A stretch of 64,000 nucleotides of DNA from Calonectria ilicicola. Taxonomy: Eukaryota; Ascomycota; Sordariomycetes; Hypocreales; Nectriaceae. The notes under the pieces were generated by a model that worked only from the letters and a program-made list of their open reading frames with translations, was not told the DNA's origin and made no database searches. Where the stretch lies: NCBI GenBank assembly GCA_020809705.1, contig CP085833.1, positions 310,001 to 374,000 on the forward strand, in the 5' to 3' direction. A program made the position numbers and the translations under genes. How positions within the stretch are numbered: the stretch's first letter is position 1; each line of letters opens with the position of its first letter. Positions 16,907 to 17,043 of the stretch are shown piece by piece.

Positions 16907-16911
16907 AAAAA
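16907..16911 (-). terminator. RNA polymerase III terminator of the tRNA-Cys gene
   Basis: On the minus strand five T residues lie four bases past the 3' end of the tRNA (TTTCTTTTTAG context), the usual Pol III stop signal. Confidence 0.75.
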
Positions 16912-16915
16912 GAAA

Positions 16916-17043
16916 GGACCGAACGTGGATCGAACACGTGACCTAGAGATCTGCAATCTCTCGCTGTGAAGCTTGTTAGAATCGGGGAACTCGTAATTGA
17001 GACATTGGGCCTCGACTCACCTCTACCACTGAGCTATCGATCC
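16916..17043 (-). tRNA. tRNA-Cys (GCA), interrupted by a 57-nt insert in the D-stem
   Basis: The exons are 17043-17021 (23 nt) and 16963-16916 (48 nt). Joined, they give a 71-nt cloverleaf with no mismatches: acceptor GGATCGA / TCGGTCC (one G-U), D-stem GCTC / GAGC, anticodon stem AGAGA / TCTCT around TTGCAGA (anticodon GCA), variable AGGTC, and T-arm ACGTG-TTCGATC-CACGT. Box A (TAGCTCAGTGG) and box B (GTTCGATCC) are intact. Unspliced, the base opposite G10 is G instead of C, so the D-stem is completed only when the insert is removed. There is no intron at the usual 37/38 site. Either this is a functional tRNA with an unusual intron or a recent insertion pseudogene; the intact termini and terminator favour function. 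Confidence 0.85.
16964..17020 (-). other. Spliceosomal-type intron inside tRNA-Cys (positions 24/25)
   Basis: 57 nt on the minus strand beginning GTGAGT and ending CACAG, with TCTAACAAG about 10 nt before the acceptor. These are the donor, branch point and acceptor of the mRNA introns elsewhere in this window, and the length is typical. The preceding tRNA exon ends in GAG, giving the favoured AG|GTGAGT context. Excision restores the D-stem exactly. The position is not where the tRNA splicing endonuclease cuts nuclear pre-tRNAs. Confidence 0.75.

Follow-up and report, generated by a model that had tools for sequence, protein, structure and literature searches.

Candidate spliceosomal introns in the tRNA genes of a fungal genome: a split tRNA-Cys(GCA) gene and its counterparts in three further isoacceptors

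The window analysed here, a stretch of 64,000 nucleotides (C9:310001-374000) from a fungal genome of 69.9 Mb in 12 contigs, contains on its minus strand (17043-16915) a tRNA-Cys(GCA) gene of two exons with a 57-nt insert between positions 24 and 25. It is very likely that this gene is intact and that the GT-AG insert splitting it is removed by the spliceosome. Introns of nuclear tRNA genes are regarded as substrates of the tRNA endonuclease. In this genome, the one covered by the whole survey, at least 13 tRNA genes for four isoacceptors (Cys, Phe, Pro, and Val) have GT-AG inserts of 53-57 nt, and a class of spliceosomal tRNA introns is the best reading of these genes, one that is strong on the evidence of their sequences. 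The preliminary description of the window locus was right in its observation, and understated. The elements of the gene are as follows.

17021..17043, minus strand: exon 1 of tRNA-Cys(GCA), positions 1-24, identical to exon 1 of two uninterrupted copies (L006 and L007)
17026..17036, minus strand: box A, TAGCTCAGTGG, unbroken within exon 1 (from the sequence)
16964..17020, minus strand: GT-AG insert of 57 nt, GTGAGT...TTCTAACAAGCTTCACAG, a predicted spliceosomal intron separating position 24 from position 25; three other tRNA-Cys loci lack it
17015..17020, minus strand: 5' splice-site-like GTGAGT, present in 4 of 26 selected host introns
16999..17004, minus strand: hexamer TGTCTC, invariant across all five Cys introns in the alignment
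16975..16979, minus strand: branch-point-like CTAAC, the commonest host branch motif (8 of 26 selected introns)
16964..16966, minus strand: 3' splice-site-like CAG; the selected host introns have CAG (11 of 26) or TAG (15 of 26), their selection having demanded YAG
16915..16963, minus strand: exon 2 of tRNA-Cys, positions 25-73 including U73 (from the sequence and a stem-pair check)
16927..16935, minus strand: box B, GTTCGATCC, unbroken within exon 2 (from the sequence)
16907..16911, minus strand: T5 run, a likely Pol III terminator (from the sequence)

The stretches 17026..17036 and 16927..16935 are what we take to be box A and box B. With the exons joined, the acceptor, anticodon, and T stems form 16 Watson-Crick pairs and one G-U pair with no mismatches, and ARAGORN calls tRNA-Cys(gca), which bears out the earlier claim that removing the insert leaves a mismatch-free tRNA-Cys(GCA); box A, box B, and the terminator were likewise correctly described as intact. 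The spliced length of 71 nt and the end at 16916 given before left out the discriminator U73, and the gene ends at 16915 with a spliced length of 72 nt. The proposed junction (17021/16963) is correct, but the cut, which had been regarded as fixed to the base, has an ambiguity of one base: G is the last base of exon 1 and of the insert alike, and GT-AG is one of two possible registers for this insert. On the unspliced window sequence ARAGORN calls no tRNA, and Rfam at its gathering threshold reports no tRNA in the window. Elsewhere in the window, part of an aspartate aminotransferase has an 85% match in Ilyonectria and an 84% match in Thelonectria, and a transferase near the tRNA gene has at most a 51% match in any fungus among the matches listed. 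The fungus is probably a member of the Nectriaceae with a relationship to Ilyonectria.

The splice signals of the inserts were compared with a host set drawn from 57 window clusters of GT...YAG stretches that leave open frames joined when they are taken out, 26 of which were kept for their good 5' site and branch motif; this set was chosen by joined reading frames and consensus resemblance, not by transcripts, which weakens the comparison. The 26 introns have a median length of 56 nt and a median distance of 11.5 nt from the branch A to the intron end, and they score 14.1-24.3 (median 21.1) on the host-intron model. The window insert, whose predicted branch A (16976) lies 12 nt from the intron end, scores 22.0, which is reached by 0 and 1 of 20,000 shuffles in two runs. 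All 13 tRNA inserts score inside the host range (15.0-23.7), each score being reached by 0-1 of 20,000 shuffles, with two Val inserts close to the lower limit, at a rank of 4% among the host scores. Their lengths (53-57 nt) and the distances of their branch A from the end (11-13 nt) match the host range, and GT and AG stand at their ends in the exon-restoring register in 13 of 13 cases, with ten ending in CAG or TAG and three in AAG. The inserts resemble host mRNA introns in length, in the 5' site, and in the branch motif and its spacing from the 3' end, and they are unlike them in that they interrupt tRNA genes, not protein-coding genes. These features support the earlier suggestion that the gene is matured by the spliceosome or by another non-endonuclease route. 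A run of five T occurs in none of the 13 tRNA inserts compared with 2 of 26 host introns, which fits Pol III transcription and proves nothing.

The inserts lie at positions 20/21, 24/25, or 34/35 and not at the canonical 37/38, where Pro and Val carry separate introns. Five of the eight Cys loci found, the same set of eight coming from two DNA searches, are interrupted, all at 24/25. The preliminary description had proposed counting the other tRNA-Cys genes that share the insert, and there are four more with it at the same base and three that are uninterrupted. The five Cys introns (54-57 nt) have in common the initial GT.AG, the branch TAAC, the final CAG, TGTCTC, and a few single bases. We know of no splice signal TGTCTC; the hexamer could pair with GAGA of the anticodon stem. 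For the loci L041 and L005, it was also observed that G49-C65 is common to an uninterrupted Cys gene on contig C1 and an intron-bearing Cys copy on C6. Therefore, the presence of the intron does not track exon variants, and intron loss or gene conversion is possible.

Pro(CGG) was found by DNA search at three loci, and all three are interrupted inside the anticodon (34/35), in the order C34, GTAAGY...CTRAC...AG, GGG, and a 24-nt canonical 37/38 intron. Reading the whole Pro insert as a single canonical intron of 77-78 nt, from which ARAGORN obtains tRNA-Thr(cgt), was rejected on sequence grounds because the tRNA body with C73 looks like Pro, an identity that we presume, and because the GGG that completes CGG follows AG in 3/3 genes. 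The GT-AG intron of Phe(GAA) is found in the D loop (20/21) in 2 of the 12 loci recovered by DNA search. The remaining ten, all of which were read, combine an unbroken D loop with a canonical intron at 37/38; a 37/38 intron is missing from both GT-AG genes (L093 and L098; compared with L097, L099, L100, and L104-L109). All Val(UAC) loci found (3/3) contain two introns, one of the GT-AG kind in the D loop and a canonical one of 7 nt, and both kinds of intron thus occur in one gene in Pro and in Val. No uninterrupted copy of Pro(CGG) or Val(UAC) was found by DNA search of the genome, and a search of the same kind does recover uninterrupted Cys copies and Phe copies with an intact D loop. On contig C3, locus L095 and six similar places form seven near-identical tRNA-like matches. 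ARAGORN calls tRNA-SeC for the single match that was read, but this match has the appearance of a canonical-intron tRNA.

The pattern that led to the first Pro gene has at least 44 matches (157 for the reversed-pattern control), one Pro gene being recognised by eye among those listed. At least 131 matches (reversed control 268) were obtained with the pattern that led to the first Phe gene, and four Cys, one Pro, and one Phe gene were recognised by eye among the matches listed, which extend from C1 to the start of C8. Two other patterns, again judged by eye, have five Cys and two Phe genes (at least 11 matches; reversed control 6) and five Cys and three Pro genes (at least 29 matches; reversed control 24) among the matches listed. 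Since most genes came from patterns demanding a branch-like motif, the presence of this motif is partly selected. A pattern of box A, YTRAC, and box B with no demand for GT or AG has at least 21 matches (reversed control 18), with two Val genes among those listed and the third Val gene coming from the DNA search; the Val inserts begin with GT and end with AG although their pattern demanded neither. Four further matches of this pattern look like tRNAs with canonical introns. The 13 genes are a lower bound because the patterns covered neither a TAGT-type box A nor a branch motif with a final T, and because the pattern counts are themselves lower bounds. In addition, an Rfam tRNA search scored 63 of 2542 candidates, and two scans of viral contigs found nothing.

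One alternative regards the inserts as one-time mRNA introns that moved into tRNA genes and stay unspliced there, so that the loci are inert and uninterrupted genes supply the tRNA. Three uninterrupted Cys copies and ten Phe genes without a D-loop insert would suit this explanation, and a copy with an insertion among many synonymous ones is usually regarded as a pseudogene, according to the part of PMC4090602 that was consulted. The state of the exons speaks against it. In the joined exons of the 13 genes, 219 of 221 pairs of the acceptor, anticodon, and T stems are formed, and the two unformed pairs are G5-A68 in Phe, where the acceptor strands are the same in ten ordinary Phe genes. Two of the Pro genes have C-G at pair 7-66, whose sides sit in different exons, and the third has A-T. 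Pairing is also preserved through changes at 49-65 in both Cys and Phe; at 4-69 in Val, a one-sided change leads to G-U. All 13 genes have retained intact stems, promoter boxes, and T5 runs, and the decay expected of an insertion pseudogene is not observed. Of five folded unspliced Cys precursors, four form the acceptor and T stems. With long introns allowed, ARAGORN gives the wrong isotype for nine of the 13 unspliced precursors and no call for the other four, and after joining, 12 of 13 are called as expected, with Val_C1 called as Lys(ttt) through another placement of its 7-nt canonical intron.

Conservation within the families points the same way, with exons (including the canonical intron where present) remaining 93%-98% identical while the introns drift. 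Outside the splice signals, intron identity is 55%-75% for Cys, Pro, and Val, and 27% for Phe. The signals themselves are 93%-100% identical for Cys, Pro, and Val, and 70% identical for Phe, whose branch motifs are displaced by one base in the automatic alignment; this contrast between the signals and the rest is partly built in because the signal columns were defined by motif (GT and AG are exempt), and it is less telling in Val because Val introns are 75% alike outside the signals. Furthermore, every copy found of Pro(CGG) and Val(UAC) is interrupted, which counts against pseudogenes. The preliminary description had held that uninterrupted copies alongside a decayed locus would indicate an insertion pseudogene; the three uninterrupted Cys copies do exist, but the interrupted loci are not decayed, and inert copies are a highly improbable explanation of the inserts.

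A second alternative, in which the tRNA splicing endonuclease cuts out the inserts as non-canonical introns and tRNA ligase seals the ends, as with introns outside 37/38 in Cyanidioschyzon merolae, nucleomorphs, and archaea, is highly improbable. Introns outside 37/38 are known and spliced in a few eukaryotes (PMC4090602, consulted in part), and the C. merolae and Guillardia theta nucleomorph genes are like those described here in having introns in the D arm and at other non-37/38 positions, with some two-intron genes, and with tRNA-Cys and tRNA-Phe included (PMC4090602 and PMC3978253, both in part). In these same excerpts, the introns are ascribed to the endonuclease or an unknown route, whereas the inserts found here have GT, a branch motif, and AG, and the Guillardia insertions measure 3-24 nt compared with 53-57 nt here (PMC3978253, in part). 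A bulge-helix-bulge test (two orientations, relaxed bulges, three helix criteria) was applied to ten inserts from Cys, Phe, and Pro, and all three criteria are satisfied by none of the eight Cys and Pro inserts and by both Phe inserts, but also by 62 and 70 of 300 shuffles of the latter. Two canonical Pro introns serving as controls satisfy 3/3 criteria and two canonical Phe introns 2/3. The bulge-helix-bulge, which the preliminary description had said would argue against the spliceosome if it stood at both junctions and came with endonuclease products, is thus absent from the Cys and Pro inserts and at chance level in Phe. As many Guillardia ectopic introns have no defined motif, according to the consulted part of PMC3978253, its absence is not final. 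The endonuclease explanation does not, however, predict GT, a branch motif, and AG at host spacing in 13 inserts. Compared with canonical 37/38 introns, the inserts are alike in interrupting a tRNA gene and needing removal, and they differ in position, in having mRNA splice signals, and, as far as Cys, Phe, and Pro are concerned, in lacking a bulge-helix-bulge above chance level.

Finally, loci inside Pol II transcripts, with ordinary mRNA introns falling by chance within tRNA-like sequence, would account for the resemblance of the inserts to ordinary host introns, but this is exceedingly improbable given that the copies are dispersed, with only 39%-41% identity in the 40 nt upstream (Cys, Pro, and Val; shuffled baseline 34%), that every insert lies inside a complete tRNA with a T5 run after each gene, and that no ORF of at least 250 aa overlaps the window locus.

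Introns of the mRNA kind are also present in both U6 snRNA genes found in the genome by a U6 search that scored 47 of 4404 candidates:

C1:6580508-6580615: U6 snRNA gene (L058)
C3:884181-884349: U6 snRNA gene (L059)

Their GTAAGT...CTAAC...CAG introns (55 and 58 nt) lie at two different places, and each holds a B-box-like GGTTCGANTCC. Schizosaccharomyces U6 genes likewise have mRNA-type introns with the B box in the intron, and reverse splicing has been proposed as the origin of U6 introns (PMC10484740, in part). The tRNA genes described here combine a GT-AG intron with predicted Pol III signals (box A, box B, and a T5 run) and are thus like Schizosaccharomyces U6 in being small Pol III-type genes with a GT...CTAAC...AG intron of the mRNA kind. 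They are unlike it in the host gene being a tRNA, in the exonic location of box B, and in the spread over four isoacceptors and several positions. The tRNA inserts have no box B, which lies in exon 2 of the tRNA genes and in the intron of both U6 genes.

From the exons, promoter boxes, and T5 run of the Cys gene, ordinary Pol III transcription is predicted, and the insert, if a spliceosomal intron, would be excised as a lariat at GTGAGT and CACAG, supplying C25 for the D-stem pair G10-C25. Maturation of Cys and Phe would likely comprise transcription by Pol III, trimming of the ends, and removal of the insert by the spliceosome, not necessarily in this order, and the products may be used in translation. 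Since the canonical 37/38 intron is present as well, the spliceosome alone is likely not enough for Pro and Val precursors, which would also need the tRNA endonuclease, and in Pro the endonuclease would probably act second, because the anticodon and G37 are complete only once the GT-AG intron has been removed. That both GT-AG Phe genes lack the canonical intron would fit a passage through endonuclease-spliced RNA. It is likely that the spliceosome is a regular tRNA-maturation machine in this fungal nucleus, on which Pro(CGG) and Val(UAC) would wholly depend. On this joint reading, the Pro anticodon would be made by the spliceosome before the endonuclease removes the second intron, and a spliceosomal intron would have replaced the endonuclease intron in two Phe genes. 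The window gene itself may be dispensable, because three uninterrupted Cys copies exist.

Among the titles and abstract openings listed in searches of the open-access literature, outside which most subscription papers and bioRxiv fall, we found no report of spliceosomal tRNA introns, and an earlier report is possible. The word stem "spliceosom" is absent from PMC4090602, PMC8450103, and PMC6379350. If a class of spliceosomal tRNA introns is confirmed, two splicing machines would share tRNA genes and, in Pro and Val, even one transcript, and the supply of two isoacceptors would hinge on pre-mRNA splicing. Standard tRNA finders would then miss real genes, as with ARAGORN, which found none in the window. 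The Phe genes, where only the two with a GT-AG intron lack the endonuclease intron, would offer a clean test of intron gain via an RNA intermediate.
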